From Corynebacterium uberis (GTDB lineage Bacteria; Actinomycetota; Actinomycetes; Mycobacteriales; Mycobacteriaceae), in contig NZ_CP085051.1 of NCBI RefSeq assembly GCF_020616335.1, positions 372,001-436,000 of the forward strand: a stretch of DNA of 64,000 bases. The letters are read 5' to 3'. A model generated the notes under the pieces. That model was not told the origin of the DNA. It made no database searches and saw nothing but the letters and a program-made list of their open reading frames with translations. Below are positions 31,058 through 50,290 of the stretch, one piece after another; the first letter of the stretch is position 1; every line of letters starts with the position of its first letter. Both the position numbers and the translations under genes were made by a program.

Positions 31058-34000
31058 TTAAGCGGGGGCGTTGAGGACCGTTGCCACGGCAGCCAGGCTG
31101 TCTGGGGCAACGAGTCCCGGGTGGGTGACGTCGAGGCGGTGGACGCGCAGTCCGCCCAGGTAGTCCTGCCAAATAGTGTGGTCCATGTGTTCGGGGTTGC
31201 GTTCGGCGCGGAAGAAGTCGGCGGTGCCGGACCACGGGTGGGTGGTGTGTTCGCGCATGATGCGTGCGTTGTGGGCGATCATGGTGGTAATTGCCCCGAG
31301 GACGGATTCGGGCAGGGCGCCGAAGGCGCCGCCGCTGGCGCGCAGGGCGGCGATGACGTGGGATTCGTCCAGCTCGTCGCCTTCCTCGGCCCAGTCGCGC
31401 CCGGCCATGGTCAGCACGCCTTGGAGGAGTTCGTGGTGGGTGGGGGCGGGCCGGCCTTGCCAGAGTTCGGCGGGGTAGGCGTCGAGCAGGCACAGGCGGC
31501 GCACCTGGGGGGTGTGGGTGGAGCCTGCGGCGGCGGCTTCGAGTTGGGCGGCAACCTCTTGGGCGAGCACCCCGCCGACGGACCAGCCGACCAGGTCTAC
31601 CTGGGTCAGGCCCCGGGCGCGGATGTCGGCGACCACGAGTGCGGCGGCGGCGCTTAAGGTGTCCGCCGGCGCGGTGTGGGGCAGCAGCCCGGGCGATTGG
31701 GCCAGGATGACGCCCCGCCGCGCATCCGTAAGCAGCGGCAGCAGTCCGGTGTAGGACCAGCTCAGCCCGCCTGCGGGGTAGAGGCAGTACAGCGGCACCC
31801 CGTCGCGGTGTTCGCGCAGCACCAGGAAGGGGTCGAAGCCGGAGGGCCCGGCGTTCGGTGCGCCTTCCGGGCTGGTTGCAGCGCTGGCGGCAGCGTTGGT
31901 ACTCGCACCGGCCTCCAGCCGGGTGGCCAGCGCGGCGACGGTGGGTGCGGCGAAGATGTCTGCCACGCTGATCGCCCCGTCGAGGGCGACGGTGAGCTCT
32001 ACGGCGGACAGGGAGGTGCCGCCGAGCTCAAAGAAGTGGGCGTCGCGGCTTAAGCTCCCGTGGCCGCAGCGCCCCAACACCCGGCCCATGGCCGCGGCGA
32101 CGCGTTCCTCGGTGGGGGTGGCCGGCGCGGGCCCGTCTGCGCCGGTGTCCAGCTCGGGCAGGGGCAGGGCCCGGGTGTCCAGCTTCCCGGAGGTGGTGGT
32201 GGGCAGCGCGTCGAGTTCGACGACGGCGGTGGGCACCATGTAGGCGGGCAGGTGGGCGCGGGCGTGGTCGAGAAGCGTGCTGGTGTCCAGGGGGGTCGCC
32301 GCGTCCGGGGTGGGCACAACCCAGGCGACTAGAGACTCCGTGGTGCTATCGCTAGCGTCGCTGCCGAGCCCCACCACTCCCACGGCCACCTGCGCGACAT
32401 CGGGGTGGGAGTGGAGGACGTCTTCGATCTCGGCGGGTTCGAGGCGCTGTCCGCGCAGCTTGACCTGGGAGTCGGCGCGGCCCAGGTAGTCGAGGGTCCC
32501 GTCGGGGCGCCACCGGGCCAGGTCGCCGGAGTCATACATGCGCCCTTCGGCGAAGGGATCTTCCTGGAAGGCGGCGGCGGTCAGCTCGTGCCGGCCGATG
32601 TATCCGGTGGCCACCTGGACGCCGGCGAGCCACAGCCGCCCGGTGGCCCCAACGGGCAGGATCCGCCCGGCGGTATCGCGCACGTAGCAGCGGGTATTCC
32701 ACACCGGCGCGCCGATGGGAACGGTGTCTTCGGTGCCCGTGATCGTGTAGGCGGTCACGTCCACGGAGGCCTCGGTGGGCCCGTAGAGGTTGTGCAGTGC
32801 GCAGTGGAGCTTTTCGACGCCCCGGTGGGCCACGCTTACAGGCAGCGCCTCGCCGGAGCAGATCACCGCCCGCAGGTCCGGCAGGAGGGTGTCCTGCGGT
32901 GCGCTGGTGGCATCCGCCCAGGCGAGGAAGGCCTTGAGAGCGGAAGGGACGAAGTGACAGATGGTGGCGCGGGCGTCGGCAAGCTCTGTGCACAACGTGG
33001 CGGGATCGCGGTGCGCGTCGGGGCTGGCCACGGCCTGCGCGCAGCCGTGGGTGAAGGGCAGGAGGAATTCCCATACGGACACGTCAAAGGACGAGTGCGT
33101 CTTTTGCATGATCGTGTCGCCGCTGCCGATGCCGTAGTAGGCGGCCATCCACTCCAGCCGGTTGGCGATGCCACACTGCGGCACCTCCACCCCCTTGGGC
33201 TTTCCGGTGGACCCGGAGGTAAACAGCACATAGGCCGGGTCGGTGGGGCTGGCCTGCTCCCACTCCGGCGCCGGGTGGGCGGGGGAGTCGGTAAGCAGGG
33301 GGCGCGCCGGATCGATGACCTGTGGGTCCAGGTGCACATCCGCTTCCGGCGTAGCGCCCACGCGCAGCACCGGGTGGGCGATGCTGCGCATGTAGGCGGT
33401 GCGCGCGGCGGGCAGCTCCGGGTCGATGGGCAGCCAGGCGCAGCCGACCAGCGCGCACGCAGCGATGGTGAGAGACAGCGCGGGGCTGCGCGGCAGCTCC
33501 ACGGCCACCAGCGTGCCGGGGCGCGCGCCCAGCTCGGCAAGCCGGGCGGCCACGGCGTCAACCTGCTGCCACAGTGCGGCGCGGTCGAGCCACTGCCCGG
33601 ACCACCACAGCCCACCCCCGTCCCCCGTGGCCCGGCACGCCTGCACGGCCTGCTGCACGGTCGGGTGGGCCGTGGCATGCGCGGTGGCGTTGAAGGTGCC
33701 TAAGACGGTGGCCTTTTCTTCCGGGGTAGCAACCTCAAGGGCGGCCAGCGGCGCGTCGGCCGAGGCGTGGGCGGCGGCGCTAACCAGGTGCGCCAGGCGG
33801 GTGATGTGGGCGGCCAGGGTGGCCTCGTCGGCGTCGGTGCCGTGGGCAAGGCCCTGAATGAGCATGCCGCCGTCCATCTCTGACTGGAAGATCAGCTCCA
33901 CGTCATGGACCAGGCCCACCGAAATGGTGCGCAGCGCGGCGCTGGCCGGACCGAAGGAAAAGACGGGGCTAAAGGGGCGCAGGTTGATGCTCGGCCCGGT

Positions 34001-35026
34001 GAACTGGTGGGAGGGGTCAGACACCCCCAGCAGGCGGCGCAGCTCCTCGCCGCGCATGGTGTCATGGGCGCGCAGGGCCGCAATCGCGGCCGCCGCCGCG
34101 GCGTAGGACTGCGCGGCGTTCTGGTCGCGGGCGGTTGCATCCAGGGGGGTCAGCGTCAGCGGCAGCACGTTGACCGCCGGTTCGAGGGCCACGGTGCGTG
34201 CCCCCAGCGGGCGGTTCATCAGCGGCAGGCCCAGGCTGACGGTCTCGGCGCCGGTCATGGCGGCGGTGTAGTGGGCGCTCAAGGCCGCAAGGACATCAAG
34301 CTCGCTGACCGAGCAGGCGGTGGCGCTGGCGCGCAGTGCGCGGCGGGTGGGGGCGCTAATCAGCGCGGTGGCGGCGATGGGGCGGCCGGTGGTGGCGGGC
34401 CGGTCTGTCCGCAGCAGGGTCGGCGGGTTGGCGGTAATGCTGCGCGCCGGGTCGGTCCAAAAGTCCTCGTCGGCGGCGCTGATGGGGCGGGTGTCGGCGG
34501 GGTCGGCGGGTCGCAGTGGGCAGGCCACGCCCGCGGGGTCCTCGCCGACGAGCAGCGCCTGGTAGGTCTGGCCCACCCAGCGGATCAGCGAGTTGATGGC
34601 AAAGCCGTCGGCGATGATGTGGTGGAAGCGGGCCAGCCAAACCACCTGCCCGGACGCGGTGGTCATGATGTGGTGACCGTGAAGCTGCTGCCCGGCGATG
34701 CGGGTGCCGTCCGTCATCGCCTTCGCAGCGGCGACGGTGGTGGCCGCCCAGGTGACCGGGTCGGTGTCGGCGTCCAGGTTGCCAAAGCTCAGATGCTCCG
34801 CGGCCGGGCGGGCCTGCGGATCCGGCACCGCCCGCGGGGTGGCCTGCGCGTCGAGCTCATAGGAGGCGCTCAAGGCGGGCAGGGCGTCCAGGCAGTGGCA
34901 CAGGGCGCGACCCAGCAGCTGCGGGTCCACCTCGCCGGTGAAGGTCAGCAGCTCCGCGCATTGCAGGGCGCTGCTGTTCGGCAGGGCGGCCTGGGCGAAC
35001 CAGAGGGCGGTTTGGCCGGGGGTCAT
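31058..35026 (-). CDS. entF: enterobactin-type synthetase, C-A-T-TE module
   Basis: This 1322-residue nonribosomal peptide synthetase has the exact domain order of EntF. The condensation domain has HHIIADG at 135-141. The adenylation domain has FTSGSTGKPKG near 600 and NLYGPTE. The carrier domain has ELGGTSLS near 1002, and the thioesterase has GWSVGG near 1145. Adenylation pocket positions read from the sequence (FDVSVWEF, CHFVPS, ICSGE, LHNLYGPTEASVDV) give DVWH-x-S-L-V, close to the EntF serine code. It should join dihydroxybenzoate to serine and cyclise three units. The ATG overlaps the upstream esterase stop (ATGA). No MbtH-like partner is seen in the window. Confidence 0.92.
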   Translation of the reverse strand: MTPGQTALWFAQAALPNSSALQCAELLTFTGEVDPQLLGRALCHCLDALPALSASYELDAQATPRAVPDPQARPAAEHLSFGNLDADTDPVTWAATTVAAAKAMTDGTRIAGQQLHGHHIMTTASGQVVWLARFHHIIADGFAINSLIRWVGQTYQALLVGEDPAGVACPLRPADPADTRPISAADEDFWTDPARSITANPPTLLRTDRPATTGRPIAATALISAPTRRALRASATACSVSELDVLAALSAHYTAAMTGAETVSLGLPLMNRPLGARTVALEPAVNVLPLTLTPLDATARDQNAAQSYAAAAAAIAALRAHDTMRGEELRRLLGVSDPSHQFTGPSINLRPFSPVFSFGPASAALRTISVGLVHDVELIFQSEMDGGMLIQGLAHGTDADEATLAAHITRLAHLVSAAAHASADAPLAALEVATPEEKATVLGTFNATAHATAHPTVQQAVQACRATGDGGGLWWSGQWLDRAALWQQVDAVAARLAELGARPGTLVAVELPRSPALSLTIAACALVGCAWLPIDPELPAARTAYMRSIAHPVLRVGATPEADVHLDPQVIDPARPLLTDSPAHPAPEWEQASPTDPAYVLFTSGSTGKPKGVEVPQCGIANRLEWMAAYYGIGSGDTIMQKTHSSFDVSVWEFLLPFTHGCAQAVASPDAHRDPATLCTELADARATICHFVPSALKAFLAWADATSAPQDTLLPDLRAVICSGEALPVSVAHRGVEKLHCALHNLYGPTEASVDVTAYTITGTEDTVPIGAPVWNTRCYVRDTAGRILPVGATGRLWLAGVQVATGYIGRHELTAAAFQEDPFAEGRMYDSGDLARWRPDGTLDYLGRADSQVKLRGQRLEPAEIEDVLHSHPDVAQVAVGVVGLGSDASDSTTESLVAWVVPTPDAATPLDTSTLLDHARAHLPAYMVPTAVVELDALPTTTSGKLDTRALPLPELDTGADGPAPATPTEERVAAAMGRVLGRCGHGSLSRDAHFFELGGTSLSAVELTVALDGAISVADIFAAPTVAALATRLEAGASTNAAASAATSPEGAPNAGPSGFDPFLVLREHRDGVPLYCLYPAGGLSWSYTGLLPLLTDARRGVILAQSPGLLPHTAPADTLSAAAALVVADIRARGLTQVDLVGWSVGGVLAQEVAAQLEAAAAGSTHTPQVRRLCLLDAYPAELWQGRPAPTHHELLQGVLTMAGRDWAEEGDELDESHVIAALRASGGAFGALPESVLGAITTMIAHNARIMREHTTHPWSGTADFFRAERNPEHMDHTIWQDYLGGLRVHRLDVTHPGLVAPDSLAAVATVLNAPA

Positions 35027-36435
35027 TGGGCACTACCTTTCGCGGTGGTGGGTAAGTCTGTCAGGGCGGGGCCGACATCGGGGAGTGATTCGGGGCTGAG
35101 AATGGCGTGCAGCCGGGTGGTCAGCGCGCAGCGCCACCAGGCGTAGTCGTGGCCGCCGTCGTAGAGGTGCAGCGGGGTGTCGAGCACCTGGGCGAGCATG
35201 TGCATGCGCGCCACGGAGAGCTTTTCTTGCAGGCCCACGTCGAGGTGGATGGGCGGCAGCCGTACCCCACTGGCCTCGGCGCTACCGGCACCGGCCGCGG
35301 CGGCGGCAAGCTCCCCGGTGATCCAGTCGATGGTGCGCTCGCCGAGGTGCGCGGGGAAGCGGTTTTCCCCGGGCACCCACCACAGGGAGGGCGACTGGGC
35401 GATGATGTGGTCCCAGGCCTGCGGCAGCTCGCGGGCGGCGAGCAGCGCGGTCAGCCCGCCGAGGGATTGCCCGGCGAGGATCCGCGGTCCGGAGAGCGCC
35501 ACCCCGGCGGCCTTGGCCTGGGCGCGCGCCCAGTCGGTGGCCCGGCCGGCGACCTCGTGCACAAACACGGGGTTGGCGCCCAGGGTGGCCTTGCGGTCGG
35601 GTACCGAGTTGTTGGCCAGGCCCAGCACCGCCAGCGGGGGCAGGACCCCGTCCGCGGTGGCGGCGGCCAGGATGTCCGGCAGGTGAAGGCGGTCGAACCA
35701 GACGTGGGCGTCAAAGATGGTCAGCAGGCCGCACGCCGCCGTGTCGGCGGGCAGGTACAGGTAGGCGCCGCGGGTCAGCTCGGCGTCGGGGTGCGCGGCG
35801 GCGGTGTCCGGGAAGTCCAGGTCAGCCACGGTGTAGCCGCGGTGGGGCGGGGCGTCCGGGGTGCCCTGGCGGTGTGTTTCCCACAGCGGGTCGGCGGGCG
35901 CGCCGGGCCCGCGCAGCAGGGACAGCCCCCGGCCGGGCTGGTCGCCGCGGACCATGGGCGCGGTGGTGGCGGTGGTGTCCAGGAACCCGGCGTAGGTGTT
36001 GTGTGCGGGCGGCCCTTTGCGCACCTGCCCGCCGGCGGCGACGGGGTTGAAGCAGTAGGAGGCGCGCAGCGTCGGCGGCAGGATGAGCGTGCGCGCCCAG
36101 ATGTCCGTGCCCGGGATGGGCAGCATCATGCCGCGCGCCTGCTGGTCCTTGTCCGTGATGCGGTTGAGCGCCAGGTGTACTGCCTCGGGGGTGTCCAGGC
36201 CCGGCGGTGTGCGCCACAGGAATGTCCAGCGGTTGGTCTGCTTATCGACGACCGGCGTGCCCCCGGAAGTCAGTTCCTGCCACAGGGCATCCCCCGACGC
36301 GGGCAGACTGTGGTCTTCCGCGCGGCGGATGAGGTCGTCATCGGTGAAAAAAGAAGCGGGCATTGCGGTGGCATCATCCAGATCTGAAGCTGACTCAATA
36401 AGGGCACACAAGGGGCGGGGCCAGGCCGGCCCCAC
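35023..36435 (-). CDS. iroD: ferric enterobactin/salmochelin esterase (IroD/Fes-like)
   Basis: The 470-residue cytoplasmic alpha/beta-hydrolase has an N-terminal Fes-type domain with WTFLWR and LNRITDKDQQARGMM...TDIWARTLILP. The catalytic part has AGQSLGG as nucleophile elbow and GGHDYAWWR with the catalytic histidine. The GGHDYAWWR ending and the TDIW block recall IroD more than E. coli Fes. It would hydrolyse the trilactone after import to release iron. The frame opens at GTG 36435, but ATG 36363 (MPASFF) may be the true start. It follows the ATPase gene by 21 bp and overlaps entF. Confidence 0.88.
   Translation of the reverse strand: MGPAWPRPLCALIESASDLDDATAMPASFFTDDDLIRRAEDHSLPASGDALWQELTSGGTPVVDKQTNRWTFLWRTPPGLDTPEAVHLALNRITDKDQQARGMMLPIPGTDIWARTLILPPTLRASYCFNPVAAGGQVRKGPPAHNTYAGFLDTTATTAPMVRGDQPGRGLSLLRGPGAPADPLWETHRQGTPDAPPHRGYTVADLDFPDTAAAHPDAELTRGAYLYLPADTAACGLLTIFDAHVWFDRLHLPDILAAATADGVLPPLAVLGLANNSVPDRKATLGANPVFVHEVAGRATDWARAQAKAAGVALSGPRILAGQSLGGLTALLAARELPQAWDHIIAQSPSLWWVPGENRFPAHLGERTIDWITGELAAAAAGAGSAEASGVRLPPIHLDVGLQEKLSVARMHMLAQVLDTPLHLYDGGHDYAWWRCALTTRLHAILSPESLPDVGPALTDLPTTAKGSAQ
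36240..36250 (-). repeat. CGTCGATAAGC motif, copy 6
   Basis: Exact 11-mer, minus orientation, in the esterase gene, encoding VVDKQ. The base before the core differs from the usual GGCG context (GGTCG). Confidence 0.85.
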
Positions 36436-36456: not shown

Positions 36457-37239
36457 CTAACTTTGGGGCGGTCCGATGGGCACGATGATGGGCGCGCCAT
36501 TATCCGGGTGGGTCAGCACGTGGACGCGCTGACCGTAGACCTCGAGAATGCGCTCCGGGGTCAGCGCCTGGTCCGGGGGTGCGGCGCAGACCACGCGGCC
36601 CTGCTTGAGCATGACAATGCGGTCTGCGTAGCGCGCGGCGACGTTGAGGTCGTGGAGGACCACAATGACCGTCTTTCCCTCCCGCGCCCACCGGTGTGCC
36701 TGGGCGAGCACGATTTCCTGGTGGCGCAGGTCGAGGGCGGCGGTGGGTTCGTCGAGAAGCACCACCTGTGCGTCCTGGACCTGGGCGCGGGCGAATTGCA
36801 CCCGGGCGGCCTCCCCGCCGGACAGGGTGGTCACCGAGCGGCGTGCCATCGACTCCAGCTCCGTGGTCTCCAGGGCGGCGATGACGCGGCGGCGATCGCC
36901 CTGGCGATCCACCTTGTAGGGCAGGCGCCCCATGGCCACGGACTCATCGACGGTGAAACCAAAATGGGCGTCGTGGCGCTGCAGCATCACCGAGCGCACC
37001 TGCGCCAACTCCTTGGGGCGGAACGTGTTGACCGCCTTGTCGGCGATGCGCACAGCGCCCGCCGCGGTGGGATCGTCTCCCGCCACGACCCCAAGGAGCG
37101 TGGATTTTCCCGCCCCATTGGGGCCCACCAGGGCCGTGACCTGACCGTGCAGGAAGTCCACGTGCACATCGTCGAGGAGCACCCGGCCCCCGGCGCGTAC
37201 CGTCACGCCGGCGACGTGGACTGCACAATCCGCGTTCAT
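36457..37239 (-). CDS. iron-complex ABC importer, ATP-binding subunit
   Basis: The 260-residue ATPase has Walker A GPNGAGKST, Q-loop, signature LSGGE, Walker B VVLLDEP and the H-loop HDLN, all intact. The MLQRHDAHFGFTVDESVAMGRLPY segment resembles HmuV-type hemin ATPases as much as FepC, so the family alone does not settle the substrate. The context (esterase and entF directly downstream) favours a ferric siderophore. The ATG overlaps the permease stop (ATGA). Confidence 0.9.
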   Translation of the reverse strand: MNADCAVHVAGVTVRAGGRVLLDDVHVDFLHGQVTALVGPNGAGKSTLLGVVAGDDPTAAGAVRIADKAVNTFRPKELAQVRSVMLQRHDAHFGFTVDESVAMGRLPYKVDRQGDRRRVIAALETTELESMARRSVTTLSGGEAARVQFARAQVQDAQVVLLDEPTAALDLRHQEIVLAQAHRWAREGKTVIVVLHDLNVAARYADRIVMLKQGRVVCAAPPDQALTPERILEVYGQRVHVLTHPDNGAPIIVPIGPPQS

Positions 37240-38324
37240 CGCACCACCCGCTTTTCACGCAGCACCAAGAACAGGAAGAACGGGGCGCCCACCGCGGCGG
37301 TGAACAGCCCAATGGGCACCTCTGCTGGCGGGGCGATGGTGCGCGCGGCGGCGTCGGCAGCCACGATGAGCACCGCGCCGGCGACCGCGGATGCTGGCAG
37401 CAACGCGCGGTGACCCGGGCCGACGATGAAGCGCACGATGTGGGGAACCACCAGGCCGATAAAGCCGATGGCGCCCGCGAAGGCCACCGCAGACGCCGTG
37501 AGCAGCGCGGTGACAATGATCACCAGGAACCGGGCGCGGCGCACGTCCAGACCCAGGTGTTGGGCCTCCCGCTCGCCGAGCGTGAGCACGTCCAAGGCCT
37601 TGGCCAAGAACACCACCAGCACCACGCCCAGCACAAAGACGGGGCTGACGGCGCCCAGCTGGGGCCAGGTGACCTTGCCCAGCGAGCCCATCTGCCAAAA
37701 CACCAGCGATTGCAGCTGCTTCTCATCGGCGGTGTAGGTCAAAAATCCCACCACCGCCTGGCAGGCAGCGCCGACCGCGATGCCCACCAGCAGCATCCGC
37801 GCGGTGCCGTGGTTGCGTCCCGGGCGCGCCAGCGCATAGATGAGCAGGGTGACGGACAGGCCGGCGACGAATGCCCCGATGGGCACCGTCCACGTGGTGG
37901 CCGAATCAACCAGCACGATCGCCGCGACCGCGCCTGCCGAACACCCGCCGGTCACGCCCACGATGCCGGGGTCTGCCAGCGGGTTGTTAAACAGGCTTTG
38001 CAGCGCGGCGCCGGATATGGCCAAGCCCGCGCCCACGATCACGCCCATGACCACGCGCGGGAGCCGCAGCGACCACACCACGGAGGAGTCGCGGGGGTTG
38101 ATTCCCAGCGCGGCGTCCGGCTGCGGGCCGGCACCGACGATTGTCCACACCTGGTCAAAGGGGATGCGCAGCGGGCCGATGGACACGGAGACCACCGCCA
38201 CCACGGCGAGGAGGGCCACACCGATACCCAAGAACAGCGCCAGGGGGATGCGGCGGACCTCCGCCTGGGGTTCCTTACTTCTTGGTGTCAAGGAGCGCCT
38301 TTGCCAGGGCCTGGGCCCCCTCAC
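37236..38324 (-). CDS. iron-complex ABC importer, permease (FecCD family)
   Basis: The 362-residue protein has about 9-10 transmembrane segments and the FecCD signatures LRLPRVVMGVIVGAGLAISGAALQ, NPLADPGIVGVTGG and GFIGLVVPHIVR. It is a single permease, so it should work as a homodimer. The GTG at 38324 would overlap the binding-protein gene by 50 bp; TTG 38291 would shorten the overlap to 17 bp and is a good alternative. It is coupled to the ATPase gene downstream. Confidence 0.9.
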   Translation of the reverse strand: MRGPRPWQRRSLTPRSKEPQAEVRRIPLALFLGIGVALLAVVAVVSVSIGPLRIPFDQVWTIVGAGPQPDAALGINPRDSSVVWSLRLPRVVMGVIVGAGLAISGAALQSLFNNPLADPGIVGVTGGCSAGAVAAIVLVDSATTWTVPIGAFVAGLSVTLLIYALARPGRNHGTARMLLVGIAVGAACQAVVGFLTYTADEKQLQSLVFWQMGSLGKVTWPQLGAVSPVFVLGVVLVVFLAKALDVLTLGEREAQHLGLDVRRARFLVIIVTALLTASAVAFAGAIGFIGLVVPHIVRFIVGPGHRALLPASAVAGAVLIVAADAAARTIAPPAEVPIGLFTAAVGAPFFLFLVLREKRVVR

Positions 38325-40995: not shown

Positions 40996-43900
40996 ATGGT
41001 CGGCCCAGGTGTGCGGCTCATAGTGGCCGAAGTTCGCCATCACGCGCGGCAATTGTGGTGGATTCTCGCGGTCACGGTGATCAGCGTCAGCGGCATGGTG
41101 CTCACCCCGCTGCTGACGCGAGGGGCGCTCAATGACGCCGTGGTGCAGCGCGTCGATCGAGTGACCTGGTGCGCACTGGGCATCGTGGCGCTGGCCGCGG
41201 TGGACTTTGCGGGCGATTATGTGCGCCGATGGTTCGCCGGGAAGCTGTCGCTGGATGTGCAACACCGGCTGCGGGTGCGCATGTACGCCGCCGCACAGAA
41301 CAGCTCGGCGGCGCAGTCGGGATTGCTGAGCCCACACGAGATTGTGACGCGGACCAACTCGGATTTGCAGCAGATCCAGCTGGTCTTGACCATGATCCCC
41401 GTGCCCGTCGCCGTGGCGGTCTATTACACCCTGGGCCTGGGGTTGATGCTGTGGCTTTCGGTGCCGTTGACGCTCATTGTCGTGCTGACGGTCGTGGTCT
41501 TCGGGTGCGTGGTGGCGCGAGTGCGCATTGTGGTTACCGATGTCGCCGGACAGGTCCAAGACCTGTTCAGCGTGTTCGGCCAGCTCGTCGCCGAGCTGGT
41601 GTCCGCGCATACCTTGATTGTGTCGGAGGGGTTGCAGCACCGCGGCCTCGCCGCGGTCAAGGAGGTCACGTCCAGGCTGTATCAGGCGCGGATGAGTTTG
41701 GCGCGCACGCAGGCCCCCCTGTCCGCGGCTTTGCAGGTCATCCCCTGGTGTGGGCAGCTGGCCGTGGTGGGTGTGGGCGCGCTGTTGGTTATTCGCGGGT
41801 CCGTGGATGTGGGGGCGTTGGTCGCGTTTTCCCTGTATCTGGGCATGCTGGTGGGCCCGACTCGGGTGCTGGCCATGTATGTGATTAACCTGTCGCGGGC
41901 GGTGCCCAGCATGAACAGGGTGGCTGCGGTCTTAGCCGCCCCGGCGGTGGATGTGAGCGCTGGGCGTCCTGCCCCGCAGGGCGCAGACATGGAGCTGGCG
42001 TTGACCAAGCAACAGCCGCCTATACGGGTGCGCCCTGGTGCGGTGCTGGTGGTGGATTGTCCATCGTCGGCGCAGGTGGAACACGTCTGCGCGTTGCTAG
42101 CGCGCAGCGAGCAAGCCTCGCAGTGCCCCGGTTCGGTGCGCCTGGGTGGGTGCGCGGTAGAGGATTTGTCTTTGGAGTCCTATTGGCGCGAGGTAGTCAC
42201 CGTGGGGCGCGCGCCCTTCTTTGCCACGGGCAGCATCGCGCAGGCGTTGTGCGATGGCCAGGAGTGGGACGCCGCACGGGGACAGGCGGCGCTGCGGGTT
42301 GCGGGTCTTGATGCGCTCATAGCGCAGCTACCCGGCGGTACGGACTATGAGCTGACCGAGGGGGCGGAGAATCTTTCCGGGGGCCAACGGGCGCGCCTGG
42401 CCGTGGCGCGCGCATGGTATTCGCAGGCCCCGTGGCTGGTGTTGCAGGAGCCCGCGGCGGCGGTGGATCCGGTGACCGCTGCGGAGGTCTTTGGGCGGCT
42501 GGGGCGGGCCGTGGGGGCGTCGCAAAGCAGCAGGGGCGTCATCGTGGTGACCACGGATGCCGCCGCGGTGGCGCGTGCGATACCGGAGGCGGTGCTGGTG
42601 GAGGCTCCGGTGCAAGACGCGCAGCCGGCCGCCGACGCGCAGGCGCGAACACCGCAGCTGAGCTCTGTGTGGGATGGCCCCGGCGCGCAGGTGGTCACGG
42701 AAGAACAGGCGTTGCGGGTGCGCACCCTGGTGGCGCGCTCGGGGTGGCGTTTTGTGTGCGCGGCGCTGTTGATGCTGATCACCACGGGGCTCACGGTGGG
42801 CTTCTCGCGGGTGTACGATCACGTGCTTACCAGCGCCTCCCCGCCGCAGGATGCCGCCTACCCCACGCGGTGGTTGCTTCTTGCAGTGGCCATCGTGGTG
42901 GCCTGGGCGATCATCGACTGCGTGCAGGCAATCGTGTGTGCCACGGCGGCAGAAACGGTGCAGCGCCAGGTGCGGCGTCTTGCGGCCCAGCAGGTGGTGC
43001 TCACCCCGGTGGGGATTGCTCGCAGCACGCGCCGCGGCGAGGTGTTGACCAAGGTGGTCGCGGATGTGGAATCCTTGGCCCGATTTTTGCAGCAGGGGCT
43101 GGCGCCGGCGCTGTCCGCACTCATCACCATCGTTGTGGTGGCCGTATCCATGCTGGTTATCGCCCCTGGGGTGACCAGCGTGGCGTTGACCAACGTGGTG
43201 ATCGTGGTGGGGGCGACGGTGGTGTTCAATGTGGTGCTGGACCGCAGCTATACCCGGGCGCGCCGCCACATGGGCCAGGTCAACGCGGCGCTGGATGAGG
43301 ATACGCGCGGCCGGGATCACGTGATGCGCAGTGGGCAGGCCCGGCAGGCAGGAAACCGCTTTGCGGCGTTGTCTGATACTTACGCTCGGGCGCGGCTGCG
43401 CGCGCAAAAGGCGATGGCCTTCTACTTCCCGTTCGTGGCGTTTAATGCGCAGGTCACCACGGCCCTGGTGGTGTGGCTGTGCGCGCGCGAGATCGCCGCG
43501 GGCCAGCTGGGGGTGGGGGTGTGCGCGGCGTTGCTGTTGTTAGCCGGACAGCTCTTCGGCCCCGTCCAGCAGGTGGCCTCCATCATCGATGGCTGGAAGC
43601 AGGCCACCGTGGCGGCCCTGAAGCTCAACGAGTTCTTTGCCCAACCGCGCGAACCCCTTGACCAGGCCACCGTCGAGCCGGCACCGCGGCCACGCCATCC
43701 CGGCGAATTGAGCGTTGATCAGGTCTCGTGGGGCTACGCGGCCGATGCGCCCGTGGTGCGCAACGTGTCCCTGCGCGTGCCCGCGGGCCAGGTGTTGGGC
43801 ATCGTGGGGCAGTCCGGCGCGGGCAAGACCACGTTGATCCGCCTGTGCGCGGGGCTCGAGCACCCGCAGCAGGGCCGCATCATCGCGGAAGGGTGGTGCG

Positions 43901-44472
43901 AGTCGCGCGCGCACCGCGATGCTTATCGACGCCGCGTGAGCTACCTGCCCCAAGAACCCATCCTGCTCAGCGCGAGCATCCGCACTACGATCACGGCGAG
44001 CGACCTCACCGGGGGAGGGGCGGCAGCCACACCTATCGATGCCGCACGGTTGGACTATGCCGTGCGCGCGGCGGGGCTGACTAACACGGTGAGCGTGCTG
44101 CCCGGCGGGCTGGATTATGTTGTGGGCGCCCAAGCCAGCGAATTGCCGGACCAGGATCGCCAGCGGGTCAGCATCGCGCGGGTGCTCTACAGCCAGGCCC
44201 CCATCGTGGTGTTGGACGAGCCCTCGGCCGCGATGACCGATGCGGAACAGCGCAGCCTCATCGCGGCCGTGCGCGAGCAGGGCCGCACGTGTGTGGTGGT
44301 CACCCACCAGCCGGCCACTGCGGCGGCGTGCGATCAGGTGGCCGTCCTGGAGGCAGGCCAGCTGGCCTGCGTGGGCGACCCGGCGCACCTCCAGCAGCAG
44401 GGTGGCAATGCCTTCGCCCGGTGGTGGGCGGCGGGATCACGCCAGTACCCGGAGGCTACCGGCGCTGACTAG
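40996..44472 (+). CDS. iroC: fused ABC exporter TMD-NBD-TMD-NBD (IroC-like)
   Basis: The 1158-residue protein consists of two ABC exporter halves fused head to tail, the architecture of the salmochelin exporter IroC, and it directly follows iroB. The halves are complementary. NBD1 has an intact signature LSGGQ (460-464) but no P-loop (DCPSSAQ at 354-360), a Walker B with Gln484 in place of Asp, and Thr520 in place of the H-loop His. NBD2 has an intact P-loop GQSGAGKTT (938-946), Walker B VVLDEP and His1104, but its signature reads LPDQD (1050-1054). Pairing of the halves would therefore give one consensus and one degenerate ATP site. The predicted role is export of the glucosylated siderophore. 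Confidence 0.9.
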   Translation: MVGPGVRLIVAEVRHHARQLWWILAVTVISVSGMVLTPLLTRGALNDAVVQRVDRVTWCALGIVALAAVDFAGDYVRRWFAGKLSLDVQHRLRVRMYAAAQNSSAAQSGLLSPHEIVTRTNSDLQQIQLVLTMIPVPVAVAVYYTLGLGLMLWLSVPLTLIVVLTVVVFGCVVARVRIVVTDVAGQVQDLFSVFGQLVAELVSAHTLIVSEGLQHRGLAAVKEVTSRLYQARMSLARTQAPLSAALQVIPWCGQLAVVGVGALLVIRGSVDVGALVAFSLYLGMLVGPTRVLAMYVINLSRAVPSMNRVAAVLAAPAVDVSAGRPAPQGADMELALTKQQPPIRVRPGAVLVVDCPSSAQVEHVCALLARSEQASQCPGSVRLGGCAVEDLSLESYWREVVTVGRAPFFATGSIAQALCDGQEWDAARGQAALRVAGLDALIAQLPGGTDYELTEGAENLSGGQRARLAVARAWYSQAPWLVLQEPAAAVDPVTAAEVFGRLGRAVGASQSSRGVIVVTTDAAAVARAIPEAVLVEAPVQDAQPAADAQARTPQLSSVWDGPGAQVVTEEQALRVRTLVARSGWRFVCAALLMLITTGLTVGFSRVYDHVLTSASPPQDAAYPTRWLLLAVAIVVAWAIIDCVQAIVCATAAETVQRQVRRLAAQQVVLTPVGIARSTRRGEVLTKVVADVESLARFLQQGLAPALSALITIVVVAVSMLVIAPGVTSVALTNVVIVVGATVVFNVVLDRSYTRARRHMGQVNAALDEDTRGRDHVMRSGQARQAGNRFAALSDTYARARLRAQKAMAFYFPFVAFNAQVTTALVVWLCAREIAAGQLGVGVCAALLLLAGQLFGPVQQVASIIDGWKQATVAALKLNEFFAQPREPLDQATVEPAPRPRHPGELSVDQVSWGYAADAPVVRNVSLRVPAGQVLGIVGQSGAGKTTLIRLCAGLEHPQQGRIIAEGWCESRAHRDAYRRRVSYLPQEPILLSASIRTTITASDLTGGGAAATPIDAARLDYAVRAAGLTNTVSVLPGGLDYVVGAQASELPDQDRQRVSIARVLYSQAPIVVLDEPSAAMTDAEQRSLIAAVREQGRTCVVVTHQPATAAACDQVAVLEAGQLACVGDPAHLQQQGGNAFARWWAAGSRQYPEATGAD
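43921..43931 (-). repeat. CGTCGATAAGC motif, copy 8
   Basis: Exact 11-mer, minus orientation, in iroC in a different reading frame (plus strand AYRRRV), so not explained by a shared peptide. Confidence 0.85.
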
Positions 44473-44625
44473 CCTCGCCTGCCCGGTAGGCGTTGCCGGG
44501 CAGCCGCGCGAGCAGGGCCATCGGCGGGTGTCCTGCTACTTTGGGGCCAACACCTCCACGATCACGCAGAGCGCCAAGCTGGTGGGGCGGTGACGCGAAA
44601 ATACATAACGCACAGTGAGGTACGC

Positions 44626-45128
44626 ATGGTGGACAAACTCACGTTTCATGAACTCGCCTGGGCCCCGGGCCCGACTAGGGCCTTGATGGCCGCACTTCTC
44701 TGGGGGCTTGGGCTGGTATTCCTGTTCCTTGGAGGGATCAGCTTTTATATCTGGTGTGGCGTTTTTGCCCTCGTTGGATTTTCGTGCGCCATCTTTAACG
44801 TCTCCACAAAATGTGCCGAAGGTGGGGTCCTGTGCGTGTATGTCTGCGGCATTCGCATCTTTAAGGTGGATGCCGCGCAGGTGCGTTCCATACGCCTGGT
44901 GAACAATGCTGCGACGTCCTGGACTACCCGCTGGCTTTTTGGCCTGTACATCGCGGGCCGACGGAAATGGTGGGCTGCGGCAGGGGTCCCGTGGTGGAGA
45001 TTGACGCCGGTGAAAAGGCTCTGCTTGTGACGCTGGGCAGGCATGAGGAGCTGGCCAGGGTCGTGGCGGGTGTGACGGGCCGAAGCGTGGACGAGATTGT
45101 AGGGGAAACGAGCATCCTGGGAATCTAG
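44626..45128 (+). pseudogene. frameshifted two-pass membrane protein gene
   Basis: From ATG 44626 (5 bases after GAGG) the frame encodes about 134 residues with two hydrophobic segments, then runs into an unconvincing tail VPWWRLTPVKRLCL and a stop at 45030. Adding one G in the CCGTGGTGG stretch near 44991 would continue the protein as GVPVVEIDAGEKALLVTLGRHEEL and end it naturally at TAG 45126-45128. The reading frame therefore seems broken by a one-base loss, either a real mutation or a sequencing error. The restored protein (about 167 residues) resembles a bacterial two-helix plus beta-domain membrane protein. It lies between iroC and the SdpI gene. Confidence 0.7.
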
Positions 45129-45277
45129 TTTCACACCAAAACGCCGAGGTTCTTGTGGGTGTGCGCCGTGGGGACGCGTAGTGGGACCGGTGATGACCGC
45201 AGTTCCCACGACCCGCGATGAAACGTCGGTTGCGGCCAGGATTCCGGTAAAGCCAGGCAGCGATGGGAAAGGAAAAG

Positions 45278-45664
45278 ATGGCAGTGTGGATCACTGTCCT
45301 GACCGGATTGCTTTCTCTGTTTTGCGCACTCCTTTTTGCCCTTATTGCAGAGAAGAGCCGCCGGGGAACCCTGCCGCGGAATCCGATTGTGGGCATTCGA
45401 TTGCCCAGCACCATGCAATCCGACGAGGCCTGGAAGGTAGCTCACCAGCGGACCTGGATAGGCACCGCTCTTGTCGCCCTTCTATTTCTTGTGGGCAGCA
45501 TCTTCATGCTTGCCTGCTGGGAAATAACAGACATCTCCGATGCGGTTGTGGTGGCTGTCATATTGAGTGCGGCGGTGCCTGTCTTAGTGGTTCAGGCATC
45601 GTGCGCAAAGAAGGCAGCTCTGGGTTGGGTGGAAGCGCCCCCAAAGGGGACGGATGAAGCATGA
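45278..45664 (+). CDS. SdpI-family membrane protein
   Basis: The 128-residue protein has three hydrophobic segments. The SdpI-family signature NPIVGIRLPSTMQSDEAWKVAHQ follows the first helix (residues about 35-57). SdpI is the immunity protein against the SDP toxin in Bacillus, but most family members have no known toxin. ATG 45278 is preferred (GGAAAGGAAAAG upstream); ATG 45263 would add five residues. It is a plus-strand passenger within the siderophore cluster, with no toxin gene visible nearby. Confidence 0.8.
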   Translation: MAVWITVLTGLLSLFCALLFALIAEKSRRGTLPRNPIVGIRLPSTMQSDEAWKVAHQRTWIGTALVALLFLVGSIFMLACWEITDISDAVVVAVILSAAVPVLVVQASCAKKAALGWVEAPPKGTDEA

Positions 45665-45847: not shown

Positions 45848-46075
45848 TTAGACCAGCAGGGCCACCCACTCATCCAGGGTGGGGGCCATCATGATCTGGT
45901 TGAAGTCCACCTCTGCGCCGTCGGCGCGCCAGTTTTCCACCAGCATGACGGTGCGCAGTGAGTCGAGTCCCTGGTCGGCCAGCGGAGTGGTGGGGTTGAC
46001 CTCGTCGGGGGTAATGCCGAGGGCTTCGGCAATGTCGGCGGTGATGCGCTCGCGGGTCAGTGTGGTCTCGGCCAT
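45848..46075 (-). CDS. free-standing aryl carrier protein
   Basis: The 75-residue carrier protein has the phosphopantetheine motif DQGLDSLR with Ser39. In E. coli this domain is the C-terminal part of EntB; here it is a separate gene at the end of the ent operon. It should carry 2,3-dihydroxybenzoate, loaded by EntE, to the condensation domain of EntF. It lies 3 bp after entE. It must be activated by a phosphopantetheinyl transferase, which is not encoded in this window. Confidence 0.9.
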   Translation of the reverse strand: MAETTLTRERITADIAEALGITPDEVNPTTPLADQGLDSLRTVMLVENWRADGAEVDFNQIMMAPTLDEWVALLV

Positions 46076-46078: not shown

Positions 46079-47713
46079 CTATTCTCCTTGGGTTTCAGTG
46101 TCGGTCAGCAGTGCGGCGAGTTTGCGGCGCAGGGCCTTGCGGGAGATCTTGCCCACGCCGGTCAGTGGGAAGGAGTCCGCGAATTCAAAGCGGTCCGGGA
46201 TCTTGTAGGTGGCCACGCCGCGTTCGCGCAGGAAGTCGCGCAGGTCTGCGGCGGTGGGGGTCTCAGCGCTGATCACGTAGGCACACGAGCGCTCGCCGAG
46301 GTAGTCGTCGGGGACGGCGACTAAGGCGGCGTCGATAACCGCTGGGTGGGCGATGAGATGGTTTTCAATCTCCTCGGCAGAAACTTTCTCCCCGCCGCGG
46401 TTGATCTGGTCCTTGTCGCGGCCCTCCACAACCAGGTGGCCGCTGGGCAGTTGGCGCACGATGTCGCCGGTGCGGTAGAAGCCGTCGGGGGTAAAGGAGC
46501 CCGGGTCGGCGCCGTGGAAGTAGCCGCGGATGGTGTAGGGCCCGCGGGTAAACAGGTTGCCGCGCTCGCTGTCCGGCACGGGGTTGCCTTCATCGTCGAG
46601 GATGAGGATTTCATCGTCGGGGGAGATGGGCCGGCCCTGGGTGCCCACGACGAGCTCGTCGGGGTCCTCGTTGCGGGTGTAGTTGACCAGCCCTTCGGCC
46701 ATGCCAAAGACTTGGCGCAGCCGGCAGCCGAGGACGGGGCGCACGCGCGCGGCGGCCTCCGGGGTGAACTTCGCGCCGCCGACGCCGAGCTCTTCGAGGG
46801 TGTCTAGGGTGGCGTCGATGCGCGGGCGCATCTGTAGCCACATCATTGCCAGCGGTGGGACGGCGCAGGTGTAGGTGATTTTCTCGGCGTCGATAAGCCG
46901 AAACACTGAGGTCGGCGTGGGGTCCTCGGTGAGCACGCAGCACCCGCCGGCGCCGATGACGCCCAGAATGCCCGGCGAGCTCATAGTGAAATTGTGCGAA
47001 ACCGGCAGCACCACCAGCATGCGGGTGTCCTGCGTGATGTGGCAGATGCGGTTGGACTCGCGCACGGAATACAGGTAGTCCGCGTGAGCGCGCGGAATGA
47101 GCTTAGGAATACCCGTCGTGCCACCGGAGACCTGCAAAAAGGCCAGGGACTCCGGATCCACCTCAGCAGGCTTATCGACGCCCCGGGGGTCCTCCTCCAG
47201 CGCATCCTCACCGCACACGATGAGCTGCGTATCCGCCCCCAGGGAGGCGATCACCTCGGCGGCGATGGCCGGGAAATCCACCCCTCCGCGCGCCTGCGTG
47301 GTCACCAGCGCCGCAGCCTGAGTCTCCCGCAGGAAGTGCGTCAACTCCGCGCCCCGGTGGGCCGGCAGCGCGAAAACGGGGCGCGCCCCCAGATAAAACA
47401 CCGCAAACACCACGCGGAAATACTCCACCACGTTGGGCAGCTGGACCAGCACAAAGTCATCCCGGCCAATGCCGTGCTCAGCCAGCGCCGCCGCAGTGCT
47501 GCGCACGGCAGCCAGCAACTCCGCATAGGTCCAGCGCACCTCCTGGCCAGCCAGGTCATGGCCCACCAGCGCCGGGGCGTCCGGGTGAGCGGCGGCAGCC
47601 TGCGGCAGCCAGGTGGCTAAGGTGTCCTCATTCCAGTACCCGGCCGCGCGGTAGCGGCGCGCAAACTCCTCAGGAAACAGGGCGGCATTCTTCTCCGTCA
47701 CAGCACCAATCAT
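46079..47713 (-). CDS. entE: 2,3-dihydroxybenzoate-AMP ligase
   Basis: The 544-residue stand-alone adenylation enzyme activates dihydroxybenzoate and loads it on the aryl carrier protein. Marks are the AMP-binding motif SGGTTGIPKLIPR, the PVSHNFTMSSPG pocket segment typical of EntE/DhbE, YRTGD, and the C-terminal GKISRKALR lysine. The ATG overlaps the entC stop (ATGA). Two CGTCGATAAGC motifs lie within the gene, in opposite orientations. Confidence 0.95.
   Translation of the reverse strand: MIGAVTEKNAALFPEEFARRYRAAGYWNEDTLATWLPQAAAAHPDAPALVGHDLAGQEVRWTYAELLAAVRSTAAALAEHGIGRDDFVLVQLPNVVEYFRVVFAVFYLGARPVFALPAHRGAELTHFLRETQAAALVTTQARGGVDFPAIAAEVIASLGADTQLIVCGEDALEEDPRGVDKPAEVDPESLAFLQVSGGTTGIPKLIPRAHADYLYSVRESNRICHITQDTRMLVVLPVSHNFTMSSPGILGVIGAGGCCVLTEDPTPTSVFRLIDAEKITYTCAVPPLAMMWLQMRPRIDATLDTLEELGVGGAKFTPEAAARVRPVLGCRLRQVFGMAEGLVNYTRNEDPDELVVGTQGRPISPDDEILILDDEGNPVPDSERGNLFTRGPYTIRGYFHGADPGSFTPDGFYRTGDIVRQLPSGHLVVEGRDKDQINRGGEKVSAEEIENHLIAHPAVIDAALVAVPDDYLGERSCAYVISAETPTAADLRDFLRERGVATYKIPDRFEFADSFPLTGVGKISRKALRRKLAALLTDTETQGE
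46888..46898 (+). repeat. CGTCGATAAGC motif, copy 9
   Basis: Exact 11-mer (GGCGTCGATAAGC), plus orientation, in entE, where the gene strand reads RLIDAEK. Confidence 0.85.
47170..47180 (-). repeat. CGTCGATAAGC motif, copy 10
   Basis: Exact 11-mer, minus orientation, in entE, encoding RGVDKPAE. Confidence 0.85.
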
Positions 47714-48843
47714 CCTTCCTTGTGGCTCAAACCATCTAGCGTATCTACGCCCAGCGCCGCGCGCACCGGGCCCAACTTGGTGGACGTTTCCGCCACCTCC
47801 ACATCCGGGTCAGAGGTGGCCACTAGGCCGCCGCCGGCATGCGCGATGACCTGCGTGCCGGCGACCACCGCGCTGCGGATGACCACCCGCCACTCGCCGT
47901 TGCCGGCGCTATCAGACCAGCCCACCGCCCCGGCATAGAAGCCGCGATCCGGCTCCCGGCGCGCCAACTCCTCGCGCGCCTCGGCGCTGGGGAAGCCCGC
48001 CACCGCCGGGGTGGGATGCAGCGCCTGCGCCAGCTCCAGGGCGCTGACCTTCGGGTCTTTGAGCTGGCCGGTGATCCGGGTGCCCAGGTGCCAGGTAAAC
48101 GCCGTGCGCGTCAGGCTCGGGCGCGCCGGGATGATCAGCTCGGTGCACAGGGGCTCGAGCACGCGGCGGATCTCCCGGGTGACGTAGGAGTGCTCATCAA
48201 GATCCTTGGCAGACAGCATCAGCTCCGTGGCGCGGGCCTGATCCTCCACCGGGTCCACGCTGCGCGGGGCGGTGCCCGCCAGGGGGTGCGACTCAATGTA
48301 GGGGCCGCGCTTGTATATCAGCAGCTCCGGGCTGGAGCCCACCAGCCACTGCCGGGCGTGGGTAGGGCCGGCGCTGGACAGGTCCACCAGGTGCCCGTGG
48401 CCGGTACCCGAATGCGCGATGAAGCGACTGAGCAGGACCTCCGGGTCGGCGGGCTTGTCCAGCTCAAAGGCCATCGCCCGGGATAACACCAGCTTGCGCA
48501 ACTGCCCGTCGCGCAGGGTGCGCACGGCTTGGGCCACGCGCTGGCGATGCTCGTTGGCGCTGGGAATCGCGCGCTGCCCGACCACCCGGGCAGGAGAGTC
48601 AGCAGGGGTGCGAAACTCCGGTGCGCCGTGGCTAAACCAGTACCGCAGCGGGGTAAACAACGCCGGGGCATCCGTGGGGTGGAAGGGCAACGCGCCGGCG
48701 ATGAGGCTAGGGCGCTGCGTGCCGCCGGCATGCAACGCCGTGATGGCCTGGCGCACATCCGGCCAGCTGCGCTGCGCCCCAATGCCTAACAGCGTGGAGC
48801 GGCTATCCGTCAAGACCAGACTATGGGCGGTATCGGAGGTCAC
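47710..48843 (-). CDS. entC: isochorismate synthase
   Basis: The 377-residue chorismate-utilising enzyme converts chorismate to isochorismate, the entry step to dihydroxybenzoate. Family blocks are KLVLSRAMAFEL, ESHPLAGTAPRS, SAKDLDEHSYVTREI, LHPTPAVAGFP and the C-terminal GRGFYAGAVGW-type segment (here PDRGFYAGAVGW). The start is GTG 48843, overlapping the entB stop as GTGA. The end overlaps entE. Confidence 0.95.
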   Translation of the reverse strand: MTSDTAHSLVLTDSRSTLLGIGAQRSWPDVRQAITALHAGGTQRPSLIAGALPFHPTDAPALFTPLRYWFSHGAPEFRTPADSPARVVGQRAIPSANEHRQRVAQAVRTLRDGQLRKLVLSRAMAFELDKPADPEVLLSRFIAHSGTGHGHLVDLSSAGPTHARQWLVGSSPELLIYKRGPYIESHPLAGTAPRSVDPVEDQARATELMLSAKDLDEHSYVTREIRRVLEPLCTELIIPARPSLTRTAFTWHLGTRITGQLKDPKVSALELAQALHPTPAVAGFPSAEAREELARREPDRGFYAGAVGWSDSAGNGEWRVVIRSAVVAGTQVIAHAGGGLVATSDPDVEVAETSTKLGPVRAALGVDTLDGLSHKEG

Positions 48844-49475
48844 TGCTGGGCCTCCAGCGATGCCACGGCGGCCGCGGTGGTCATGGCCACACCAGCACGG
48901 GTGCCCACCCAGTTGATCGCGCCGGCGTGCTCGCGGGCGCTAAAGTCCGCGATGGCATCAGTGATGAGGAAGGCCTCAATGTCATTCATGAACGCATCGG
49001 CCGCGCTGACCTGGCAGCCCATATGCCCGTACACGCCGGTGATGACCAGCTGATCGCGTCGCGCATGGGCCAGCGTCTCGCGCAGGTCGGTGCGCTGGAA
49101 CGCCGAATAGCGCCACTTGGTCACCACGTGGTGGTGCGGCTGCGGGTGCAGCGCCTCGATGACGGCGGCCTGCTGCTTGGTAGACATGCCTTGGCCCCAG
49201 ACCTCGGTGAGCAGACCGCGGCGCAGCGGATCCTGCGCGGGCGGCTGCACGGAGTAGAAGACGGGGGCCCCGGCGGCGTCGAAAAGCGCAATGAGCTGCT
49301 GGATATTGGCGATGACCGTGCGGATGGGATCCGCATCCGGGTCGAAGGCATCGATGAAATAGTTCTGCATGTCATGGACCAGCAAAGCCGCACGCTGCGG
49401 CTGGAGAGTCCAGTCCACGACGGGGGTCGGAAGGTCCGAAGGAATGCGATAAGACTCGATATGCGGAATGGGCAC
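48840..49475 (-). CDS. entB: isochorismatase (EntB N-terminal type, no carrier domain)
   Basis: The 211-residue isochorismatase converts isochorismate to 2,3-dihydro-2,3-dihydroxybenzoate. LVHDMQNYFIDAF with the catalytic Asp, KWRYSAFQRTDL, and GVYGHMGCQVSAADAFMNDI are typical. In E. coli EntB the isochorismatase is fused to an aryl carrier domain; here the protein stops before it and the carrier is encoded separately at 45848-46075. It overlaps entC by 4 bp and follows entA by 38 bp. Confidence 0.95.
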   Translation of the reverse strand: MPIPHIESYRIPSDLPTPVVDWTLQPQRAALLVHDMQNYFIDAFDPDADPIRTVIANIQQLIALFDAAGAPVFYSVQPPAQDPLRRGLLTEVWGQGMSTKQQAAVIEALHPQPHHHVVTKWRYSAFQRTDLRETLAHARRDQLVITGVYGHMGCQVSAADAFMNDIEAFLITDAIADFSAREHAGAINWVGTRAGVAMTTAAAVASLEAQQ

Positions 49476-49513: not shown

Positions 49514-50290
49514 CTAAGAATCAAGGGTGGCGCCGCCATCGACGCGCAGGTCATGCATGGTGATGTGCCGGGCGGCAGGGGAGATGAGGAAAGCGCACGC
49601 CGCCGCGATATCCTCCGGCGAACCCAGCGTCGCGTCCGGAATGCCCAGCCGAAACTCCTCCGGGCTGCCAGCGATGACCCGGGCTGACTGATCCGTGCCC
49701 TCCGGCCACATACCGCGCAACATCGGCGTATCCGTGGAACCAGGAGAAACGATGTTGCAGCGCACCCCATGGCCAGCGCACTCCAGCGCCAGGACCCGAG
49801 TCCAGGCAGTCGCCGCAGCCTTCGACGCACAGTACGAGGCCATGCCCATCCGCGGCGTCGTCGCCGCATTAGAAGACACCACCACGATCGCCCCGCGGCC
49901 GCGCGCAATCATCAGCTCAGCCACCACGGAACACACATTGACCACCCCGCCCACGTTGACCTGAAGGCTGTGGCTCAAGCCCTGGGGATCCGGGGTGACG
50001 GCAGCATCCGCATGCAGGACGCCGGCGGCATGGACGAGGGCGTCGATAGGCTGGCGCGCGTCGAGAGCGCGCACCGTGGCGGCGATTGCCGCAGCATCGG
50101 TGACGTCATGATCAGGCAGATCCAAACCCGTCACCGTATCCCCCTGCGCCTCTAGCAGCGCGACCAGCGCGCGCCCGACGCCCCCCGCCGCGCCGGTGAC
50201 AACAACGTGGCGAGGTGGTGCAGCGGCTTCAGCGGGGGTTGGTGCGGCAGCCTGTGCAGAAGGTGTTGCGGGGGCTTGGGATGACGGCAC
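49514..50290 (-). CDS. entA: 2,3-dihydro-2,3-dihydroxybenzoate dehydrogenase
   Basis: The short-chain dehydrogenase makes 2,3-dihydroxybenzoate. It has the Rossmann motif TGAAGGVG, catalytic Ser in VVVSSNAA, and YCASK with Tyr and Lys. The C-terminal [10 protein letters not shown] is typical of EntA. I prefer GTG 50290, behind AAGGAG with 11-base spacing, giving 258 residues with an Ala/Pro-rich N-terminus of about 28 residues. A longer open frame extends to 50464 but has no better start. It is the first gene of the operon entA-entB-entC-entE-carrier. Confidence 0.93.

Follow-up and report, generated by a model that had tools for sequence, protein, structure and literature searches.

A 64,000-nucleotide stretch of the Corynebacterium uberis genome (hereafter the window; bases 372001-436000 of a single 2,533,318 base contig) probably encodes a salmochelin-type siderophore pathway of composite origin. 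C-glucosylated enterobactin, the product expected of such a pathway, is an enterobacterial answer to host siderocalin. The case is carried by the gene content of the locus, by the placement of its glycosyltransferase in the IroB clade, by a serine-type code in the nonribosomal peptide synthetase (NRPS) EntF, by a break between the aryl carrier protein (ArCP) gene and the esterase gene fes, and by the replacement of heme-site residues in the binding protein of a linked ATP-binding cassette (ABC) importer. A fuller proposition is about evenly balanced between true and false: that a Gram-positive salmochelin system arose by capture, when an ancestral Corynebacterium enterobactin (ent) locus gained a block for glucosylation, export and import, and the site of a heme importer was remodelled (His/Tyr/Arg to Lys/Thr/Thr) so as to accept a ferric tricatecholate that carries glucose. 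The points that distinguish the locus are this mixed origin and an importer that has probably been re-tooled.

The genes fall into three runs. One, on the minus strand, descends from the importer's binding protein through its permease and ATPase, the Fes-like esterase and EntF to a major facilitator superfamily (MFS) transporter (39387 down to 29758); a plus-strand run consists of iroB and iroC with zero gap (39832-44472); and a second minus-strand run comprises entA, entB, entC, entE and the ArCP gene (50290 down to 45848). Within each run, genes overlap by 4 bases or are separated by fewer than 45, with larger overlaps, where the longest start is taken, of 50 bases between the binding protein and permease and 53 between EntF and the MFS protein. 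An earlier note on this DNA had proposed three adjacent transcripts, with which this spacing is compatible, and each gene that it named corresponds to an uninterrupted reading frame where it had been put or close by. The expected domains of the locus proteins pass the curated Pfam cut-offs; the NCBIfam naming cut-offs are missed by EntF, EntE, EntA and Fes, and EntC meets one, at subfamily level.

Glucosyltransferase, enterobactin genes and exporters

The 387 aa product of the gene at 39832..40995 (plus strand) is identified by sequence identity and by phylogeny as a homologue of the enterobactin C-glucosyltransferase IroB. A search of a large protein set returned a group of full-length proteins at 46-57% identity to it, among them those named IroB in Klebsiella, E. 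coli, Salmonella, Gibbsiella and Serratia, which gave 48-49% (49-50% for the four of them that were aligned). The next rows, at 40-45%, came from Streptomyces and others, and included an IroB-named Salmonella indica sequence (42% over 80%); other full-length glycosyltransferases reached at most 38%. In a 71-row tree, from which one IroB-named row (P0090) was left out, the window protein and five IroB-named rows shared a 51-row clade (100/100), which was joined next by four rows, three of them from Streptomyces (55 rows, 100/99), with 16 other glycosyltransferases outside; by this tree the enzyme is orthologous to IroB. Within the clade it belonged to a 15-row set with proteins of Rothia, Brevibacterium, C. 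hindlerae and others (97/86), on a long end branch and with an unsure sister (89/61). At the positions of E. coli IroB that we take to be E60, E67, W264 and D304, the window protein has D, E, W and D; in place of H65/H66 of the E. coli enzyme it has R/W, and the IroB rows of Klebsiella and Salmonella have R/R.

The surroundings of related genes also bear on this assignment. IroB-type patterns matched 78 loci in named genomes, of which 22 (L004-L025) were examined and one, a fragment (L020), was set aside. All 16 loci whose IroB showed at least 43% identity (L004-L019) had a Fes-like gene nearby, and 14 of them an IroC-like ABC gene, the ABC matches of Hafnia and Cedecea being weak only. At the five loci with 39% identity or less there was no Fes match, and exporter-like ABC matches appeared in two. 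IroB loci of Kocuria, Rothia koreensis and two Brevibacterium additionally contained entA, B, C and E, and that of Streptomyces varsoviensis (L018) had IroB-, IroC- and Fes-like matches. It has to be considered that the glycosyltransferase might be an antibiotic or macrolide enzyme unrelated to siderophores, as NCBIfam matches to TIGR04516, MGT and three other antibiotic-glycosyltransferase models could suggest; all of these lie far under cut-off, and the tree, identities and gene neighbours contradict an idea that merits almost no credence. The tree had been proposed in the earlier note as the means of separating IroB from macrolide or other UGTs, and, set against the 16 other glycosyltransferase rows, it rejects the latter identity.

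The biosynthetic gene set predicts enterobactin, in agreement with the trilactone pathway that had been suggested, and genes for the synthesis and activation of 2,3-dihydroxybenzoate (DHB) are present along with one for an aryl carrier, all on the minus strand. EntA, the putative 2,3-dihydro-2,3-dihydroxybenzoate dehydrogenase (about 49514..50290, with an uncertain start, as the frame extends to 50464), scores 247.7 bits against TIGR04316, under the cut-off of 300, and is up to 62% identical to EntA of other Corynebacterium loci. EntC, an isochorismate synthase (47710..48843), scores 237.1 bits against TIGR00543, above its cut-off of 224.75. EntB (48840..49475; PF00857) has isochorismatases as its closest solved relatives, including E. 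coli EntB (2fq1, named Isochorismatase). The E. coli protein carries a fused aryl carrier domain, whereas that of the window does not, a free 75-residue carrier with the motif DQGLDSL (45848..46075; PF00550, 43.3 bits) following EntE instead; matches to this carrier of 45-62% lie between entE and fes or entF in other Corynebacterium loci. EntE itself (46079..47713), the predicted DHB-AMP ligase, matches two solved DHB-AMP ligases at 605 and 565 bits, a salicylate ligase at 536 and E. coli EntE at 466, and scores 640 bits against TIGR02275, short of the cut-off of 723.55. One phosphopantetheinyl transferase family match, a 230-aa frame, is found in the genome, outside the window.

EntF (31058..35026, minus strand) is a single-module NRPS with condensation, adenylation, peptidyl carrier and thioesterase (TE) domains, and matches the E. 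coli EntF structure 5ja1 over its whole length (532 bits). The earlier note's near-EntF serine code is borne out: the ten-residue code, DVWHISLVDK, is serine-type and matches the DVWHFSLVDK of two EntF-named relatives at nine of ten positions. The latter code occurs in eight of 14 aligned relatives, including those two and both Brevibacterium proteins, and the remaining six differ from it by one or two conservative letters. The motifs HHIIADG, GGTSL and GWSVGG are retained. The NCBIfam EntF equivalog was the best of 97 models matched, at 593.6 bits; its cut-off of 2400 bits is a naming threshold that is not reached, and the protein is therefore called EntF in a works-like sense.

A second NRPS is encoded elsewhere in the genome (1969512-1976570, minus strand). 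It is a 2353 aa protein of two modules and a TE, with the codes DSSDYGAVDK and DFWNIGMVHK, the latter of which we take to be threonine-type, and around it lie matches to a binding protein, two FecCD permeases, an ATPase and Fes-like proteins. The 20 kb examined in its vicinity contained no EntA, B or C match, and the synthetase may share the DHB made by the window's enzymes. IroB could then act on the product of this dimodular enzyme, or on both products, a possibility given colour by the threonine-type module and TE, by the adjoining permeases, binding protein and Fes-like matches, and by the absence from the genome of a second strong member of the EntE family (126 bits for the runner-up, against 640 for the window's EntE). 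However, IroB lies in the entF locus, and in Kocuria, Rothia koreensis and Brevibacterium its relatives too are beside ent genes; the use of DHB by the second NRPS is a supposition. This alternative is accordingly held to be unlikely, and enterobactin is retained as the favoured substrate of IroB.

Directly after iroB is the gene for an IroC-like double ABC exporter of 1158 aa (40996..44472, plus strand; two ABC_membrane and two ABC_tran Pfam domains), in which transmembrane and nucleotide-binding domains (NBDs) alternate twice. The Walker A motif of NBD1, present in all eight relatives compared, is lost, and NBD2 retains Walker A and B and NBD1 its LSGGQ. As a result of the motifs retained and lost, the nucleotide site that pairs the Walker motifs of NBD2 with the signature of NBD1 appears intact and its partner site degenerate; asymmetric ABC exporters of such a type do work. 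All nine proteins, that of the window included, have a single LSGGQ-type motif, located in NBD1. The missing Walker A and the shorter length of the window protein (1158 aa from ATG, against 1236-1310 aa measured from stop to stop in the eight relatives), together with the several proteins that fall under family cut-offs, might be read as signs of a decaying cluster that no longer makes a glucosylated siderophore. Such a reading is very unlikely, given that every frame is open, that the EntF motifs, the NBD2 Walker A/B and the NBD1 LSGGQ are kept, and that the eight relatives likewise have one LSGGQ per protein. The MFS protein at the far end of the first run (29758..31110, minus strand; MFS_1, 155 bits; aromatic acid/H+ symport type, with TIGR00895 under cut-off) is a possible exporter or DHB transporter. 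Its true start is probably inside the open reading frame (ORF), and MFS proteins of 55-58% identity also follow entF in two of ten other Corynebacterium loci.

The 470 aa Fes/IroD-like esterase (35023..36435, minus strand) has PF11806 and PF00756 matches above cut-off. It scores 124.8 bits against the NCBIfam enterochelin esterase model, under the cut-off of 222, and 57.5 and 46.3 bits against the solved enterochelin esterases 3mga and 2b20. This homology fits Fes or IroD alike.

Composite origin of the locus

The rpoC product of the genome is 93% identical to those of C. mastitidis, C. oculi, C. lowii and an unclassified Corynebacterium, and at most 91% to the other named rows. Across 242 Corynebacterium genomes, EntF was detected in 20, that of the window counted, at an E value of 1e-150 or better, and IroB in one, the window genome itself, at 1e-60; in a sample of the family it was likewise found in one of 401, at 1e-50. 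An IroB-like protein of C. hindlerae (P0015) has been deposited that the genus sample does not show, and IroB carriage in the genus is therefore patchy. The flanks of entF were compared in ten of the 19 other EntF genomes, over 31-40 kb each. The entABCE-ArCP-fes-entF genes of the window are collinear with these enterobactin-type loci, in all ten of which the gene next after that for the carrier is fes (five) or entF (five), and none of which has an IroB match. In the window, by contrast, 9.4 kb lie between the ArCP gene and fes. The intervening block (36457..45664) contains the importer, iroB, iroC and two frames for small membrane proteins between iroC and the ArCP gene, one a membrane-like ORF (44590-45030) and the other of the SdpI family (45263-45664). 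S10 ribosomal protein genes (L3, L4, L2 and S3 at 23055-26951) adjoin one side of the ent/iro region and small ORFs, from 50889 on, the other; in four of the ten loci such S10 genes are found downstream of entF, oriented relative to it as in the window, at 3-19 kb against 4 kb here.

Trees and identities divide the genes in a similar manner. EntE and EntB group with two Corynebacterium genomes, G103 and G114 (100/98 and 99/97), to which EntE is 66-68% identical, against 44-48% to its counterparts in Kocuria, Rothia koreensis and Brevibacterium. EntA falls in an all-Corynebacterium set (88/92, not starred). The importer permease groups with those of Kocuria, Rothia and Brevibacterium (99/98, or 87/99 after addition of the genome's own HmuU), as does the ATPase (86/91), and the permease is 66-69% identical to proteins of these genera, against 30-44% to those of the ten ent loci and its own genome; one other Corynebacterium, G019, has a permease of 69% identity. 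Fes groups with five Corynebacterium rows (94/93, not starred), a sixth, from G017, lying elsewhere; by identity, the window's Fes is closer to those of Kocuria and Rothia (41-42%) than to the Corynebacterium ones (32-37%).

The locus therefore looks composite, an importer-iroB-iroC block having apparently been inserted into a Corynebacterium enterobactin locus whose ent genes, and probably fes, would be of the genus's own type. Gene order and trees suggest that the block may have been acquired once. No repeat pair marking both edges of the block was found among 20 of 22 direct and ten inverted repeat families, transposases not having been searched for. The gene set that the earlier note took to define the enterobacterial iroA/ent systems is present, but with the appearance of a Corynebacterium ent locus carrying an actinobacterial insertion rather than of an enterobacterial import.

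The importer and a proposed pathway

The linked importer, all of whose genes are on the minus strand, consists of an ATPase (36457-37239), a FecCD permease (37236-38324) and a lipoprotein-like binding protein (38275-39387), and belongs to the heme HmuTUV family. The ATPase scores 279.1 bits against the heme ATPase model NF010068, above the cut-off of 261. The binding protein matches 11 distinct PDB sequences, every one a heme binder, and its fold is closest to HmuT; siderophore binders ranked under heme binders in Foldseek/VIA, a ranking that says nothing on the ligand. The HmuT heme-site residues His141, Tyr240 and Arg242 are replaced in the window by K, T and T, and in all five relatives of the protein by K, T and then T or N, whereas the genome's own HmuT, encoded beside HtaA in a separate htaA-hmuT locus, keeps all three. 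A conserved Lys (FNKSTG) and residues of the KRHG region and of RGxSRE are candidates for lining the altered site. No HtaA was found beside the window importer, the only HtaA matches in the genome being at 2129188-2131077.

One alternative keeps the ent/iro genes as the source of glucosylated enterobactin and of its export, as proposed, but has the linked importer take up heme, the ferric siderophore entering through another transporter such as the two-permease system by the second NRPS. The ATPase score, the exclusively heme-binding PDB relatives, the HmuT-like fold and the presence of ten further matches to the binding protein family in the genome are all compatible with this. It is nonetheless a minority possibility, as the residue changes are shared by the five relatives, the genome's own HmuT is intact, and in Kocuria, Rothia koreensis, Brevibacterium and Corynebacterium G019 an importer of this type accompanies catecholate genes. 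A plain heme importer is disfavoured by the replaced residues and the separate htaA-hmuT locus. Since the heme residues are replaced, the importer has probably been retooled for a ferric siderophore. The ABC import described in the earlier note thus stands as regards the presence of importer genes; because these are of the heme HmuTUV family with an altered heme site, import of salmochelin is something that we infer from them.

In G019, a separate search placed a binding protein of the window type beside fes and entA, B and C. The contig concerned (L144, C97:1-20000) carries the same importer type with these genes and without an IroB match, and is possibly an enterobactin-only setting of such an importer. 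The one plasmid record of a similar permease is from Shinella (54% over 77%).

The importer and iroB diverge from a 444-base gap (39388..39831) that contains the two best matches to a DtxR box consensus in the 64 kb: one at 39682 (14/19) and one at 39515 (13/19). When the gap was resampled 5000 times under a Markov model, 32 resamples reached 14 and six reached both scores. The best match to this consensus upstream of entA was 11/19, and the window contains no such box with three or fewer mismatches. A perfect inverted repeat, AGGTCA-A-TGACCT, is also present in the gap (39609-39621), near the DtxR-like sites.

In the pathway proposed here, every reaction, the number of glucose residues, the direction and substrate of transport, and the regulation are predictions from sequence. 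EntC, EntB and EntA would convert chorismate to DHB, which EntE would load onto the stand-alone carrier; EntF would couple DHB to serine, its thioesterase closing the cyclic trimer, enterobactin. IroB would glucosylate the DHB rings, with UDP-glucose as the donor, and IroC would export the glucosylated product, possibly helped by the MFS protein. The ferric form would be bound by the lipoprotein, imported by the permease and ATPase and opened by the Fes-like esterase, so freeing the iron. When iron is plentiful, a DtxR-type repressor would probably shut the divergent importer/iroB promoter. The importer, iroB and iroC are envisaged as having arrived together, in a block whose relatives are found in Kocuria, Rothia and Brevibacterium, the importer being descended from a heme importer.

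Related systems and neighbouring genes

The salmochelin (iroBCDEN) and ent systems of Salmonella, E. coli and Klebsiella share with the window an enzyme of the IroB clade, an IroC-like double ABC exporter, a Fes/IroD-like esterase, the predicted EntA-B-C-E-F activities and a serine-type single-module EntF. By comparison with the enterobacterial layout, the window differs in having one locus, a free aryl carrier and an HmuTUV-type importer in place of FepBCDG; its IroB is 48-50% identical to the enterobacterial enzymes, and its IroC lacks the NBD1 Walker A. IroN-type TonB receptors would not be expected in Corynebacterium. The HmuTUV of C. glutamicum shares family, fold and ATPase model with the importer of the window, which is without His141, Tyr240, Arg242 and an adjoining HtaA.

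Within the actinobacteria, one report describes a cluster of Brevibacterium ATCC 9174 inserted at a tRNA-Gly gene, with an NRPS, the glycosyltransferase IroB, four DHB enzymes and transporters, for which horizontal transfer was invoked (PMC5719810). The window likewise combines IroB, an NRPS, four DHB enzymes, an importer and an exporter in one actinobacterial cluster, and its IroB, permease and binding protein have Brevibacterium proteins among their closest kin; as far as that description goes, it differs in that solely the importer-iroB-iroC part is of the Brevibacterium type, the ent genes being of the Corynebacterium type. Among the NRPS core genes reported for Corynebacterium in another study is entF (PMC12188740); the order EntE-ArCP-(fes)-entF is common to the window and such loci, with iroB in none of the ten compared here. 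Enterobactin production by Rothia mucilaginosa, cited in PMC13347742, represents a similar pathway in an actinobacterium, the stem 'glycosyl' being absent from the main text of that paper. The catechols of a Streptomyces varsoviensis strain other than that of L018 are reported to be framed on DHB-serine, and salmochelin is mentioned in the introduction only, within the passages seen of that paper (PMC10188961).

Among the papers listed in the literature searches, as judged by titles, the starts of abstracts and selected passages, none was seen to describe a salmochelin pathway for Corynebacterium. The novelty supposed in the earlier note is reduced, as the Brevibacterium cluster combining IroB with ent genes has been published since 2017 (PMC5719810) and the IroB-like sequence of C. 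hindlerae (P0015) is public. That a Corynebacterium has this gene set, and that Kocuria, Rothia and Brevibacterium have related ones, suggests a chemistry more widespread than the pathogen setting implies; Streptomyces also has related iroB, iroC and fes genes, and siderophore glucosylation may serve competition or the avoidance of piracy outside hosts. If the proposed capture and site rebuilding are correct, a heme importer would have become one for siderophores, and actinobacteria would provide an instance of glucosylated stealth siderophores. Its changed site residues make the HmuT-type binding protein a direct means of studying how a heme importer can switch substrate.

Beyond the ent/iro genes, three successive plus-strand ORFs of 201-236 aa (50889-52973) lack Pfam matches, and the two whose translations were inspected have signal-peptide-like stretches near their starts. 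A GH32 glycosidase gene is followed by one for a PTS EII transporter (54587-58287), a pair likely to be used for sucrose or fructan, and a gene of the secretory lipase family (PF03583) is found at 62384-63970.

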